From the IMG/VR virus record IMGVR_UViG_3300032088_000119, positions 1 to 20,380 of that record: a stretch of 20,380 nucleotides of DNA; one strand, written 5' to 3'. Positions 10,100 to 17,494 of the stretch are shown one piece after another. The stretch comes from a virus. The notes beneath the pieces are model-generated. The model saw nothing but the letters and a program-made list of their open reading frames with translations. It did no database searches and was not told where the DNA came from. The translations under genes and the position numbers were made by a program. Within the stretch, counting starts at the first letter, position 1, and the number at the start of each line of letters is the position of its first letter.

Positions 10100-11497
10100 T
10101 TAAGCTACTGAATCGATCTTGATACAAGGCTGATCTGTGCCTGCACCTGCGACGATCTCGTTGAAGCCCAGAGACTGGGTAGCAACGATTACACGACGCT
10201 GATTCATTACTTCGTAATCCTGCTCAACGGTTACACCGCGGAGTCGTGGGATCACGTAGTTACGTGCATATACTGCATATGCTACTGGTACGCCAGCACC
10301 TTCTGCCGCGAACTCTTCAGAAACAATTACTGGAGAACCGAAGACGGCTCCAACAGTACCAGTTACCTTGATAGCGAGTTCAGTACCTACTTCGTCAAGG
10401 CTCTGGAATGCAGAGTCACTCAACAGATCGTAGTACATATTCTGGCTTACGATGAAAGTAACATCAGAAGGGTTCAGACCGTACTTACCCATTTCCTTAC
10501 GTGCTGCAAGAAGTTGAGCACCAGTCATGGTAGAGAAGTTGCCTGAAGCTAATGAAGCACCATCAATGTCGTGCTTAGCTGTAGCGATTGCACCGTGTCC
10601 GTCAAGGCCAGAAATAGTACCGTTACCATTAAGGATAGCGGCTTCTACTGCACGACCGTGTGCACGAGCAACACCTTCGACCAACATAGGCATCAAGTTA
10701 ACAAGTACTTGCTCGTCAACTTCGTTATCCATGAACGTGCTTGAGATCAAGCGATAAGCGTTCAAGATAACTTGCTTAGGCTGGTAAGTAGCGTTTGATG
10801 CGCCACGATTTTCCAAGTTACCAGAAGTAGCGTTAGTTGCCCATGCAGCTGGGTCAACATCTACCTGGATAGGAAGAACTGTAGACTTACCGTTTACAGG
10901 AACTTCACGGAACATACGAGCTACTTTCAGCTCATTCATGATTTCCTTCTCGATCAAACGAGATACTTCCTGGTCGATATCTGCAGCGTTGCTTGCATAA
11001 TCGATACCAGCTTTCTCTTGGATATCGCCAGCAAAGTCAGTATTCCAACCTTTCTGAGTCATAACACCCAACATGTGAGCGTTCAAGAAATCTTGGCCCC
11101 ACTTGCTGATGTCAGACTTCTCTGCACGATCAGAGAATACACGCTTGGATTCACGCATTTTAGAGATCTCTTCAGACTTCTCTTCAAGATCCTTCTTATA
11201 TTGCGCAAGAATTTCACCCATGTCTGCTTCTTTAGCAGTAAGTTTTTCTTGCATATCTGCAAGAAGTCGCTCAGCACCTGACTCAACACCAGTTTTAATT
11301 GCTGATTTAACTTCTTCAGCTTGAAGAGCTTTAGCTTCTGCGTCTGCAGTTGCTTTTTCTTCAGCTTCTTGTACAGCTTTTACTTCAGCTGCTTTTTGCT
11401 CGGCTTGCTTCATTGCAATCTTTGCAGCAGTTTCCTCTGCTACCTTCTTAGCAAAAGCTTCCAAGTCGACTTCGGGAGTTTGTGTTCCTTCCGACAT
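10100..11497 (-). CDS. Nested in-frame product: major capsid protein from internal start (465 aa)
   Basis: Met202 of the fusion (ATG at 11497, MSEGTQTPEVDLEAF) is preceded by AAAGGAGACAAAA, a near-perfect Shine-Dalgarno with seven-base spacing. That is much better than the site of the full-length start. The predicted product begins exactly where the protease part ends and the scaffold-like coiled coil starts, so it would be a complete capsid precursor with delta domain. This parallels nested protease/scaffold genes such as lambda C/Nu3, but here the nested product is the coat protein itself. Its existence is inferred from the ribosome site and the domain boundary. Confidence 0.65.
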   Translation of the reverse strand: MSEGTQTPEVDLEAFAKKVAEETAAKIAMKQAEQKAAEVKAVQEAEEKATADAEAKALQAEEVKSAIKTGVESGAERLLADMQEKLTAKEADMGEILAQYKKDLEEKSEEISKMRESKRVFSDRAEKSDISKWGQDFLNAHMLGVMTQKGWNTDFAGDIQEKAGIDYASNAADIDQEVSRLIEKEIMNELKVARMFREVPVNGKSTVLPIQVDVDPAAWATNATSGNLENRGASNATYQPKQVILNAYRLISSTFMDNEVDEQVLVNLMPMLVEGVARAHGRAVEAAILNGNGTISGLDGHGAIATAKHDIDGASLASGNFSTMTGAQLLAARKEMGKYGLNPSDVTFIVSQNMYYDLLSDSAFQSLDEVGTELAIKVTGTVGAVFGSPVIVSEEFAAEGAGVPVAYAVYARNYVIPRLRGVTVEQDYEVMNQRRVIVATQSLGFNEIVAGAGTDQPCIKIDSVA

Positions 11498-12100
11498 TTT
11501 TGTCTCCTTTTGGGCAATAGCCCCATCCGGTGCGTCACTAGCTAGTAATGATTTTTCATCCTTAGCCAGAGACGGCTCGGCTAGTTCGACACTATTAATG
11601 AAAGTTTTTTTGAATTCTTCGTACTCATCAATCGAGTCAAAAGATTTCGCCAGAGAGAAAGTTGCTGCTTGATTGCAAGGAACGGATACAACCGATACTT
11701 CAAACAACTCAGCGTCCTTAATCTTTAGTCCGTCAGTTTCCGTGATATAATCAGCATCCTTGACTCGGAAACCAACAGAAAAAGCCCCAAGGATACCTTC
11801 TTTAACCAGTTCACAAACATTAGCAGGTGCTGACTTGCTAATCTTTGCTTCTAACTCCAGGCCATTCTCTGTTACTTTAAGGCCTGTAGCTCGACCGATT
11901 GGTCGATCATAGTCGTGATTGAAAAGAATAATAGGGTTCTTTTCGAAATTTTTAAGTCCTCCTTTTGCCCATGCTTCACCAGAGATAGAATCTCCTGCAC
12001 GATCAAAATCAGACGTACTTGCCATACCGCGAATCATTACACTTCCATCTTCAGAAGCGTGTGATTTAAAAGTAGACGTTAGATTGAATATTTTTTCCAT
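10100..12100 (-). CDS. HK97-type prohead protease fused to major capsid protein
   Basis: A 666-aa fusion. Residues 1-170 are an S78-family prohead protease with His62 in FNHDYDRPIGRA, Ser108 in GAFSVGFR and the acidic stretch AELFEVSVVSVP (Glu131/Glu134). Residues 200-325 are an Ala/Glu/Lys-rich coiled coil like the scaffolding delta domain of HK97 capsid. Residues about 330-666 are an HK97-fold capsid protein (PIQVDVDPAAW, PSDVTFIVSQNMYYDLL, RGVTVEQDYEVMNQRR). Maturation cleavage would be expected near residue 320. The 12100 start has a poor ribosome site, whereas the in-frame Met202 has a strong one (separate entry), so free capsid protein is probably made in excess. It follows portal and precedes the connectors, the standard head-module order. 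The DNA of the capsid part uses more C-ending codons than its neighbours, as expected of a highly expressed gene. Confidence 0.93.
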   Translation of the reverse strand: MEKIFNLTSTFKSHASEDGSVMIRGMASTSDFDRAGDSISGEAWAKGGLKNFEKNPIILFNHDYDRPIGRATGLKVTENGLELEAKISKSAPANVCELVKEGILGAFSVGFRVKDADYITETDGLKIKDAELFEVSVVSVPCNQAATFSLAKSFDSIDEYEEFKKTFINSVELAEPSLAKDEKSLLASDAPDGAIAQKETKMSEGTQTPEVDLEAFAKKVAEETAAKIAMKQAEQKAAEVKAVQEAEEKATADAEAKALQAEEVKSAIKTGVESGAERLLADMQEKLTAKEADMGEILAQYKKDLEEKSEEISKMRESKRVFSDRAEKSDISKWGQDFLNAHMLGVMTQKGWNTDFAGDIQEKAGIDYASNAADIDQEVSRLIEKEIMNELKVARMFREVPVNGKSTVLPIQVDVDPAAWATNATSGNLENRGASNATYQPKQVILNAYRLISSTFMDNEVDEQVLVNLMPMLVEGVARAHGRAVEAAILNGNGTISGLDGHGAIATAKHDIDGASLASGNFSTMTGAQLLAARKEMGKYGLNPSDVTFIVSQNMYYDLLSDSAFQSLDEVGTELAIKVTGTVGAVFGSPVIVSEEFAAEGAGVPVAYAVYARNYVIPRLRGVTVEQDYEVMNQRRVIVATQSLGFNEIVAGAGTDQPCIKIDSVA
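11495..11509 (-). promoter_or_regulatory. Strong internal ribosome binding site in the protease-capsid gene
   Basis: The minus strand reads AAGGAGACAAAAATG, in frame with both products. It sits at the domain border between protease and delta/capsid parts. Purine-rich runs of this quality are not seen at the annotated start of the fusion, where the upstream sequence is GAGAACTAAT. Confidence 0.7.
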
Positions 12101-13983: not shown

Positions 13984-14012
13984 AGTATATCTAATTTGAG
14001 GTGTTATGTCAA
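13984..14012 (-). promoter_or_regulatory. Sigma70-type promoter P2 (TTGACA-N17-TATACT)
   Basis: A perfect -35 TTGACA (14007-14012) and -10 TATACT (13984-13989) lie 17 bases apart on the minus strand. ACCTAGTTAAAAATAGTAT lies immediately upstream, matching P1 and P3. The upstream element begins right after the terminase stop codon. It drives HNH, portal and the capsid genes. Confidence 0.88.
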
Positions 14013-15816: not shown

Positions 15817-16221
15817 TTAGCCTCTCAGTTTTGCTATAAGCATCTTGATTGCTACCGTAGTGGGTAGGAATCTCCAAGGATGAAATCTGTGTCCGAGCTT
15901 TTCCATTTCTCGTTTGGAGACAAACTTTTTGCTCCAGTTATCAATATACAATTTACCAAACTTAAGTACAGCATGGCCACCTCCAGTGTGTGTGGTTACA
16001 AAACAAATTTTTGCTTTAAAAGTAAATAAATGTAACCAAAACTTAAGCCATGATTTTTCGCTAATTAAGTACAATACTGTAAGAGAGTAGTCTTCGCAAT
16101 CTCCAACATAAGGAGCTTCTTTCATTATTCTCCAATGATCAGACACTTTATACTGCTCTTTATCGTATTTATACTTCCATGTTTTATTAATATGAGATAC
16201 TTCTAAATCAAACACTACCAT
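15817..16221 (-). CDS. Transglutaminase-like Cys-His-Asp peptidase (LapG/BTLCP type)
   Basis: 134 aa with an apparent catalytic triad: Cys42 in VGDCEDYSLTVLYL, His83 in GGGHAVLKF and Asp94 in LYIDNW. This spacing and these motifs match the bacterial transglutaminase-like cysteine proteinase family, which includes LapG, the periplasmic protease that cuts LapA adhesins. No signal peptide is present, so it would need a holin or would act in the cytoplasm or virion. It directly precedes the two-TM EF-hand protein, which suggests a lysis or release pair. Other roles are possible: prohead processing, or cutting host surface adhesins after lysis. It overlaps the basic 102-aa gene by seven bases. Confidence 0.8.
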   Translation of the reverse strand: MVVFDLEVSHINKTWKYKYDKEQYKVSDHWRIMKEAPYVGDCEDYSLTVLYLISEKSWLKFWLHLFTFKAKICFVTTHTGGGHAVLKFGKLYIDNWSKKFVSKREMEKLGHRFHPWRFLPTTVAIKMLIAKLRG

Positions 16222-16523
16222 TTCACCTTATCGGCCCAATAAGCTGCGCTCATTTTACCCTTTGCGATATTCTTCGCATGACGAGCCTTGAAAGAAGCTC
16301 GCTTTTTTCTCATTGCTTCCGACTCGCCGGCCTTGGGCTTCCCTGCCGTCTTAGCTCCCTGCTGGCCGAAACGAATTGTTTTAATCTTAGTACCAACCTT
16401 AGCTACTACGATATGTGACTTCTTTGCATGACCGGGTGTGCGTTTAGGTTTATTAAACCCCGCTACCTTGGCTCTTTTTACTGCTGGATGTTTTTTCCTA
16501 ACGCTTTTTCTTTTTGCTGCCAC
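16215..16523 (-). CDS. Lys/Arg-rich small protein (102 aa), unknown
   Basis: A strongly basic protein starting MAAKRKSVRKKHP, with a central KSHIVVAKVGTKIKTIRFGQQG strand-rich segment. The C-terminal motif KKRASFKARHAKNIAKGKMS then YWADKVKW resembles small basic proteins I associate with marine phages; the family function is unknown. A TTG at 16541 extends the frame by six residues, but the GTG at 16523 has GAGG seven bases upstream and gives the same MAAKRK start as a neighbour gene. It overlaps the preceding gene by 26 bases. It is probably nucleic-acid binding by charge; packaged internal protein or nucleoid protein are both possible. Confidence 0.82.
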   Translation of the reverse strand: MAAKRKSVRKKHPAVKRAKVAGFNKPKRTPGHAKKSHIVVAKVGTKIKTIRFGQQGAKTAGKPKAGESEAMRKKRASFKARHAKNIAKGKMSAAYWADKVKW

Positions 16524-16788
16524 GTCTCTTCCTCTTCGCAAACGTACTTACGTTCGTTGGCTTGCCTCCTGAATTGCCGGCGGCTCTTTTACGACGAATT
16601 GCGGACTTTCTTTGTGCTGGAGTCATAGAAGCGGCTTTAGAAGCTGGGACACATTTTGGATATTTCTTTTTACCCGACTTACTTCTTCCGCATTTTTCGA
16701 AACCCCCGCCCTTTTTAGGACGGGAGATATCAACCCACTTTTCTCCAAACCACTTTGTTAATCCACCTGGTGGTTTTACTCCTGCCAT
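16498..16788 (-). CDS. Basic DUF5872-like protein (96 aa), unknown function
   Basis: A highly basic protein with the run KWVDISRPKKGGGFEKCGRS, then KYPKCVPASKAASMTPAQR and RKRAAGNSGGKPTNV. I recognise this pattern (W-D-I, C-G-R-S, Y-P-K-C, A-G-N-x-G-G-K-P-T) as a small domain found in marine phages and in giant DNA viruses of protists, which I recall as DUF5872; the name should be checked. Two cysteines (in KCGRS and PKCVP) may bind a metal. The C-terminal tail is almost pure Lys/Arg. It has a GGGAGA site five bases before the ATG. The function of the family is not known. Confidence 0.85.
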   Translation of the reverse strand: MAGVKPPGGLTKWFGEKWVDISRPKKGGGFEKCGRSKSGKKKYPKCVPASKAASMTPAQRKSAIRRKRAAGNSGGKPTNVSTFAKRKRRGSKKKKR

Positions 16789-16817
16789 TATAGTCTCCCG
16801 GACTAACGCTTAGAAGG

Positions 16818-16979
16818 TCACTTCTTCTTTTTACCTTTCTTTTTCATTAGTGCTTTTTGAAGTGCGGGTGGAAGTTTCTTTTGAGCAGCGGTTAAACCGC
16901 CCATAGACTTCTTTTTACCCTTTCCCTTTTTAGCTGGACGTCCTCTTTTCTTTCCGTAAGTTCCTTTACCTGCTGGCAT
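16818..16979 (-). CDS. 53-aa Lys/Arg-rich mini-protein
   Basis: A short frame starting MPAGKGTYGKKRGRPAKKGK and ending in a Lys tract, with a small hydrophobic helix between (GGLTAAQKKLPPALQKALM). The GRPAKK segment resembles an AT-hook (core RGRP), which binds the minor groove of AT-rich DNA. The ATG overlaps the TAA of the previous gene (TAATG), so translation is coupled. About 40% of the residues are Lys or Arg. It is likely a DNA- or RNA-binding accessory protein; function is unproven. Confidence 0.75.
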   Translation of the reverse strand: MPAGKGTYGKKRGRPAKKGKGKKKSMGGLTAAQKKLPPALQKALMKKKGKKKK

Positions 16980-17164
16980 TACTTGCTCCCCATGCGGTAT
17001 TTACCGCCCTTGGCTTTGTAAGTCTTTACAAGCCATCCATTCGCATAAGCTGAAGGATATACAGCAAATTTTCTCTTTGTCTGTGCCTTCACTCTTGCGT
17101 AAAGTTTTTTATTCGTCGGAACTGGCTTCTTCTTCGTCGACTTTCTCTTCCTCTTCGCCGCCAT
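16979..17164 (-). CDS. 61-aa basic small protein, unknown
   Basis: A basic N-terminus (MAAKRKRKSTKKKPVPTNKK) leads into a compact conserved-looking core (LYARVKAQTKRKF, YPSAYANGWLVKTYKAKGG). The A-Y-A-N-G-W-L-V-K-x-Y-K phrase is one I associate with small proteins of marine phages and giant viruses. An upstream ATG at 17179 adds MEKQI; I prefer 17164 because GGAG lies nine bases before it. It overlaps the acidic-tailed gene by 56 bases. Function is unknown; the charge suggests nucleic-acid contact. Confidence 0.8.
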   Translation of the reverse strand: MAAKRKRKSTKKKPVPTNKKLYARVKAQTKRKFAVYPSAYANGWLVKTYKAKGGKYRMGSK

Positions 17165-17321
17165 GATCTGCTTCTCCATACCAGTTAGCTCTGCTATCCT
17201 CTTGGAGCTTATTCAGCTTCTCGGTTCCGTTTTCGTAAGCCTCTGCCTCTTCTTTAGTTGCAAAGGCTTTTTTTCCTCGCTTTGGGTCGTGGGCGTACCA
17301 CATTCCTTTATTCTCAAACAT
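17109..17321 (-). CDS. 70-aa protein with acidic tail, unknown
   Basis: The N-terminal half (MFENKGMWYAHDPKRGKKAF then ATKEEAEAYENG) looks like a small folded domain. The last 20 residues are nearly all Glu, Asp and Ser (EEEEKVDEEEASSDE). The ATG at 17321 has GGAG eight bases upstream; a TTG one codon earlier is less likely. It overlaps the cysteine-rich gene by eight bases. It lies directly upstream of four strongly basic proteins, so the acidic tail might neutralise or chaperone them, as acidic tails do for histones (inference). Confidence 0.78.
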   Translation of the reverse strand: MFENKGMWYAHDPKRGKKAFATKEEAEAYENGTEKLNKLQEDSRANWYGEADHGGEEEEKVDEEEASSDE

Positions 17322-17427
17322 CAATTATCTCCTCGTCGCAAGCACAATCATAACAGACTTCGTTAATGCACTTTTCACAGTCTTTGCCACAATGACAGTC
17401 GTGGCCGCACTTTCTACATTTTCTCAT
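17314..17427 (-). CDS. 37-aa cysteine-rich, metallothionein-like or zinc-binding mini-protein
   Basis: Starts MRKCRKCGHDCHCGKDCEKC and holds nine Cys (4, 7, 11, 13, 17, 20, 25, 28, 30) and two His (9, 12) within 30 residues, ending in an acidic tail. The arrangement is CxxC, CxC, CxxC, CxxCxC. This density means metal binding, as in metallothioneins or a pair of zinc knuckles. The ATG at 17427 has GGAG six bases upstream; an ATG four codons earlier (MEKV) is possible. It is the first gene after the strongest promoter in the window (P1), so it should be made in quantity. I do not recognise the family. Possible roles are metal buffering, zinc supply to the HNH enzyme or redox protection. Confidence 0.78.
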   Translation of the reverse strand: MRKCRKCGHDCHCGKDCEKCINEVCYDCACDEEIIDV

Positions 17428-17465
17428 AACTTTCTCCATGCAGTACTGTGCTGAATATAAATTAT

Positions 17466-17494
17466 ATTATAGAGCACATTGATTAAAATGTCAA
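17466..17494 (-). promoter_or_regulatory. Consensus sigma70 promoter P1 (TTGACA-N17-TATAAT)
   Basis: A perfect -35 (17489-17494) and perfect -10 (17466-17471) lie 17 bases apart on the minus strand. The upstream element ACCTAGTTAAAAAAATTTC (17495-17513) matches those of P2 and P3, and its first bases overlap the stop codon of the 37-aa membrane protein. The transcript start is expected near 17459, giving a leader of about 30 bases with a Shine-Dalgarno before the cysteine-rich gene. The AT-rich upstream block may act as an UP element. Confidence 0.92.

Follow-up and report, generated by a model that had tools for sequence, protein, structure and literature searches.

A conserved Cys9His2 mini-protein carried by diverse, mostly marine phages: a candidate metallothionein-like accessory protein

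INTRODUCTION

Bacterial metallothioneins bind zinc very tightly and function in zinc buffering (PMC10612145). One of them, SmtA, binds four zinc ions in a Zn4Cys9His2 core (PMC10119931). A literature search, with most subscription journals outside its coverage, found no account of a phage metallothionein. In the present study, we analysed a viral stretch of 20,380 nucleotides, IMG/VR record IMGVR_UViG_3300032088_000119 (positions 1 to 20,380; hereafter the window), which carries a very short gene for a protein rich in cysteine and histidine. We describe its conservation, its relatives in other phages and the reading that we favour, in which its product is a small metallothionein-like protein.

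RESULTS

A short Cys/His-rich gene in the window

The gene and its ribosome-binding site are located as follows.

17314..17427, minus strand: Cys9His2 mini-protein of 37 aa, member of a conserved family
17430..17437, minus strand: Shine-Dalgarno sequence GGAGAAAG, with GGAG 6 nt before the ATG; a GGAGA-type sequence is kept in relatives

The encoded protein, MRKCRKCGHDCHCGKDCEKCINEVCYDCACDEEIIDV, consists of 37 residues, with 9 Cys, 2 His and an acidic tail. Its cysteines are spaced CxxC-x3-CxC-x3-CxxC-x4-CxxCxC, and the 11 Cys and His positions are packed into 27 residues. The initial annotation had both the coordinates and the spacing right, and left the minus strand unstated. In 300 dinucleotide shuffles of the window, no comparable ORF appeared (an ATG ORF of 25-80 aa, either with at least nine Cys or with the spacing pattern), while the real window contains exactly one. 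A second in-frame ATG lies upstream at 17439, adjoining the Shine-Dalgarno region, and would give a 41-aa form. Since this ATG is not preserved among the relatives compared, while the GGAG-type site before 17427 is kept, translation likely starts at 17427, giving the 37-aa form.

Searches of the reference collections returned no matching family for the protein in Pfam, PHROGs or NCBIfam, and Pfam gave no hit even with E values of up to 1 allowed. A PDB sequence search up to E 10 yielded no metallothionein among its matches; the weak top neighbours were mostly nucleocapsid knuckles (E 1.4-10, not significant). An AlphaFold2 model of the peptide had low confidence (pLDDT 67, pTM 0.32), and a fold search with it gave no useful match.

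Presence, selection and promoter among close relatives

Close relatives were collected from IMG/VR as terminase homologues. Within the window's own lineage, the Cys gene is optional: it is present in all eight loci with a terminase at least 94% identical and enough upstream sequence (one of these, L002, is identical to the window sequence), but in none of the six relatives at 90-91% terminase identity and in none of those checked at 81-85%. The cysteines are conserved in the relatives, and the frame is free of stop codons in every close relative. Among the six distinct alleles of the window lineage, pN/pS is 0.11, with silent changes falling inside Cys and His codons; these alleles are under purifying selection. 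The tiny gene, which the initial annotation took to be too short for routine gene callers, is a genuine, overlooked, conserved and so far unnamed gene, and its putative metal-ligand residues are preserved.

Two further features define its position in the operon.

17466..17494, minus strand: sigma-70 promoter TTGACA-17-TATAAT, matching 12/12 positions; every close relative with the Cys gene has identical hexamers
17109..17321, minus strand: 70-aa protein with an acidic tail, from the gene that follows; counted from its ATG, 8 nt are shared with the end of the Cys gene

The promoter is the top-scoring one of the region scanned and lies on the same strand as the Cys gene, with a 17-nt spacer. The distance from promoter to ATG is 38 nt, and is the same in all close relatives carrying the gene. 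In the 90-91% relatives that lack the Cys gene, the perfect promoter stays and runs straight into the homologue of the 70-aa gene. At family members in other lineages, no such promoter was seen. The proposal that the gene stands first behind the strongest promoter therefore holds for its lead position and for the perfect consensus, but the promoter is not specific to it, and the idea of a promoter made for the Cys gene was rejected. Because the promoter is retained in the gene-less relatives, we regard the Cys gene as an optional lead gene and the promoter as independent of it.

Several other features of the minus strand of the window were observed. A second near-perfect promoter (11/12; 13984-14012) lies directly before the HNH gene and is kept in relatives. 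Downstream of the Cys gene and the 70-aa gene, a run of small, very basic, lysine-rich proteins occupies 16215-17179, and the same operon encodes a transglutaminase-like cysteine proteinase at 15817-16221 (Peptidase_C93, above the Pfam cut-off). At 10100-12100, a single 666-aa ORF appears to fuse the prohead protease and the major capsid protein, which are two annotated features in the T5-like Vibrio phages that resemble this ORF.

A wider family with a conserved ligand set

Homologues were gathered in three pattern scans. The first used the nine-Cys spacing alone, followed by frame analysis, and left at least 17 clean loci, every one of which has both histidines although these were not demanded; the frame analysis removed most matches of the Cys-only scans as simple repeats or antisense frames. 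The second scan, with CxxC-x-H-x-CHC-x3-CxxC, raised the set to at least 93 distinct proteins. Across the 93 distinct homologues among the matches listed, conservation reaches 100% in each Cys/His column but the last, and this includes C25 and C28, which lie outside the search pattern. The last ligand position in this set is Cys in 65 and His in 13, the rest being mostly Asn. The third scan, in which no His was demanded, revealed a subfamily with Cys replacing His9 and with His12 kept; one possible member (L377) is without His12. In all, at least 112 distinct members were collected, with the signature CxxC-x-[H/C]-x-CHC-x3-CxxC-x(1 or 4)-CxxC-x-[C/H].

In the combined set of 112 among the matches listed, position 9 is His in 90 and Cys in 22, and His12 is invariant because the set was defined with CHC. 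The segment after C20 is either x4, with N-[DE] conserved, or x1. Apart from the N-[DE] of the long-loop subfamily, the commonest residue in the non-ligand columns reaches only about 25-60%. All lineages have the same rigid spacing over residues 1 to 17, which the search patterns themselves had demanded. The family medians for these 112 matches are 9 Cys, no aromatic residues and a net charge of -3, and 79% of the members are acidic.

Genomic contexts and distribution

The Cys gene was found in at least eight genomic contexts, a number that is approximate because clusters of neighbouring genes served to define the contexts.

Context 1: head of the terminase/portal/capsid operon (the window)
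Context 2: T4-like baseplate order gp5 - PAAR protein - Cys - gp25 - gp6
Context 3: contigs whose PolB shares 45-50% identity with that of large-genome phages
Context 4: HTVC023P-like contigs, after a 215-aa protein
Context 5: portal - Cys - protease, the portal 56-57% identical to those of HTVC111P-type phages
Context 6: downstream of the ribonucleotide reductase small subunit
Context 7: near a second portal type
Context 8: beside virion structural genes

As an accessory gene, it has been acquired by many phage lineages, in which its position differs. We call it marine on the basis of its pelagiphage and marine T4-like relatives. In the T4-like contigs (L121, L230, L256 and others), the protein preceding the Cys gene carries the PAAR motif (phrog_281), and the gene following it is the baseplate gp25.

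In a search of 50,697 records of cultured phages, the sole significant match was in the SAR11 phage HTVC023P (Pelagibacter phage, MN698239.1). This member, at 29074-29200, fills an unannotated gap between gp44 and gp45, and its frame and the end of gp44 overlap. With most members as queries, tblastn gave nothing significant in phages, probably owing to masking and short length, while only one longer short-loop member gave a significant match. A similarity to gp79 of Mycobacterium phage Serendipitous was discarded as a chance match. Infection by HTVC027P induces iron and sulfur genes (PMC12753301); a tie between this induction and the Cys gene was rejected, as tblastn had no match in the HTVC027P record.

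The 215-aa neighbour (L226:1662-2339, L231 and others; cluster 0) bears the PHROGs label 'ferredoxin' (phrog_3704), and seems to correspond to 'PurM' of HTVC023P. Neither name is backed by a Pfam domain or a PDB relative, and a low-confidence structure model gave only poor Tudor-like matches (TM about 0.24). In two lineages, a member of this protein family lies next to the Cys gene, with the gene order of one lineage reversed in the other.

In 84,980 cellular species genomes, the strict pattern found no convincing small gene. The matches were simple repeats or implausible frames, with the exception of one archaeal ORF (L359:2522-3643, from a Methanomethylophilaceae MAG), and a cellular origin was rejected on this pattern search. 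This ORF has long His/Cys-rich stretches and contains the exact family signature, CEKCGHACHCGKKCPECGCDDCEC.

DISCUSSION

A metallothionein-like reading of the family

The conserved ligand set strongly implies that the Cys protein binds metal, and we hold this to be very probable. Cys and His exchange within the conserved columns, which therefore behave as metal ligands, and the non-ligand columns are nearly free, suggesting that metal binding itself, rather than a recognition surface, is the selected property. Metallothioneins as a class are smaller than 10 kDa, with about 20-33% Cys arranged in CxC and CxxC pairs and with few or no aromatic residues. The window protein falls within this size, has 9 Cys in 37 aa (24%), with a CHC, three CxxC and a terminal CxC, and contains a single Tyr. 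All of the class features visible in a sequence are present, and formation of a metal cluster is predicted from them.

We consider it fairly probable that the ORF encodes a phage-borne, metallothionein-like accessory protein, acting as a metal buffer or store. This reading is favoured because the 11 ligands exceed the requirement of two simple zinc sites, because the ligand inventory is that of SmtA, and because bacterial metallothioneins bind zinc tightly. From the same evidence, we infer the identity of the metal, its stoichiometry and the buffering role. The 11 putative ligands would suffice for a metal-thiolate cluster of two to four ions, most likely Zn(II). As hydrophobic residues are few, the capacity for a hydrophobic core is near zero, and the fold would probably form around the bound metal. 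Since the gene is flanked by a strong promoter and by the start of the terminase/portal/capsid operon, the protein would be expected to be produced in quantity with that operon. It may then buffer or hold zinc, or a different soft metal, during infection, for instance metal that host proteins and ribosomes have released or that phage metalloproteins need.

Alternative explanations

Several observations count against a metallothionein-like buffer. The sequence searches matched no known metallothionein family, the low-confidence AlphaFold2 model gave no useful fold match, and the ligand spacing includes that of a perfect CCHC knuckle. The rigid spacing of the first 17 residues, maintained in all lineages although demanded by the search patterns, also resembles that of a folded zinc module more than that of a loose thionein. 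Because of this rigid spacing, the main rival is a small zinc-finger adaptor for host takeover, which would bind a protein of the host or of the phage (RNA polymerase, a nuclease or the ribosome) and in which zinc would be structural only. The four ligand pairs (CxxC, [H/C]xCHC, CxxC and CxxC) would suit two structural zinc sites, and the moron-like spread would suit a host-interaction gene. However, almost no non-ligand residue is conserved across the family, and the 10-11 conserved ligands exceed the eight that two structural zincs require. We therefore judge the adaptor unlikely.

The initial annotation had also raised a zinc-knuckle nucleic-acid binder, which would act on phage mRNA or packaged DNA in the manner of the retroviral nucleocapsid. 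The ligands C4-x2-C7-x4-H12-x4-C17 do reproduce the exact CCHC spacing, and the weak PDB neighbours are mostly such knuckles. The PDB similarity lacks significance, and there is no Pfam zf-CCHC match. Residue 11, directly before the His, is always Cys, whereas in a CCHC knuckle this residue is usually Gly. Furthermore, seven further ligands are conserved, and the basic flank is replaced by the predominantly acidic character described above. Given the charge, the extra ligands and the missing profile match, a knuckle is quite improbable.

A dedicated metallochaperone, serving a particular phage metalloenzyme or a metal-tipped tail protein, would agree with the T4-like members, which sit between the PAAR spike-tip gene and gp25, with other members placed directly after the ribonucleotide reductase small subunit, and with the recurrence of the 215-aa family beside the gene in two lineages. 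No partner is common to all of the contexts, however. For the window, delivery of zinc to the HNH enzyme had been suggested; this was rejected, because relatives without the Cys gene keep the HNH gene and because the contexts of the family vary widely. We regard a metallochaperone as very improbable. Finally, a disulfide-rich secreted or toxic peptide would be small and cysteine-rich as well, but the odd number of Cys, the invariant histidine, the Cys/His exchange and the lack of a visible signal peptide make it exceedingly improbable.

Returning to the metallothionein-like reading, it is possible, though we put it forward tentatively, that these genes form the first recognised family of phage-encoded metallothioneins. 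It would be a metal-buffering viral gene, apparently absent from the genomes of cells, that is passed among marine phages of unrelated kinds (T4-like, T5-like, pelagiphage podovirus types and large-genome PolB phages) and gives control of zinc in the infected cell. If so, metal handling would be a widespread part of infection by marine phages that has been overlooked, its genes being too short for most annotation and missing from the reference libraries searched, and phage biology would be tied to the zinc, iron and copper chemistry of the ocean.

Comparison with known systems

The one clear family member in a cultured phage is the HTVC023P ORF (29074-29175), which is of the short-loop subtype and is 71% identical over 34 residues to a query from a related contig (E 5e-9). 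Its loop before the last CxxC is three residues shorter, and its ninth ligand is Asn. Small hypothetical proteins from the baseplate neighbourhood of Pelagibacter phage HTVC008M (AGE60383.1; KC465899.1, 30276-30398; CxxCGHxxHCG...CxxCRCxxC) and from the baseplate region of the SAR11 myophage Mosig (Mosig_00110; MT647606.1, 90375-90512; 51% identical to the HTVC008M protein) have fewer ligands and a long loop as compared to the family, and are possibly distant cousins. With the retroviral CCHC knuckle (zf-CCHC), the Cys protein has in common C-x2-C-x4-H-x4-C at C4, C7, H12 and C17, to which it adds the conserved Cys11, Cys13, Cys20, Cys25, Cys28 and His/Cys9.

By the tests made, the Cys protein lies outside the SmtA/BmtA sequence family (Metallothio_Pro), having neither a profile match nor a match to the solved SmtA. 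SmtA of Synechococcus elongatus PCC 7942 has 56 aa, as against 37 aa here, and differs in ligand order and spacing; the Cys protein, moreover, is carried by phages and not by chromosomes. The two proteins are alike in being small and Cys-rich and in their Cys9His2 inventory, and these nine Cys and two His, the putative metal ligands, are conserved in the long subfamily.
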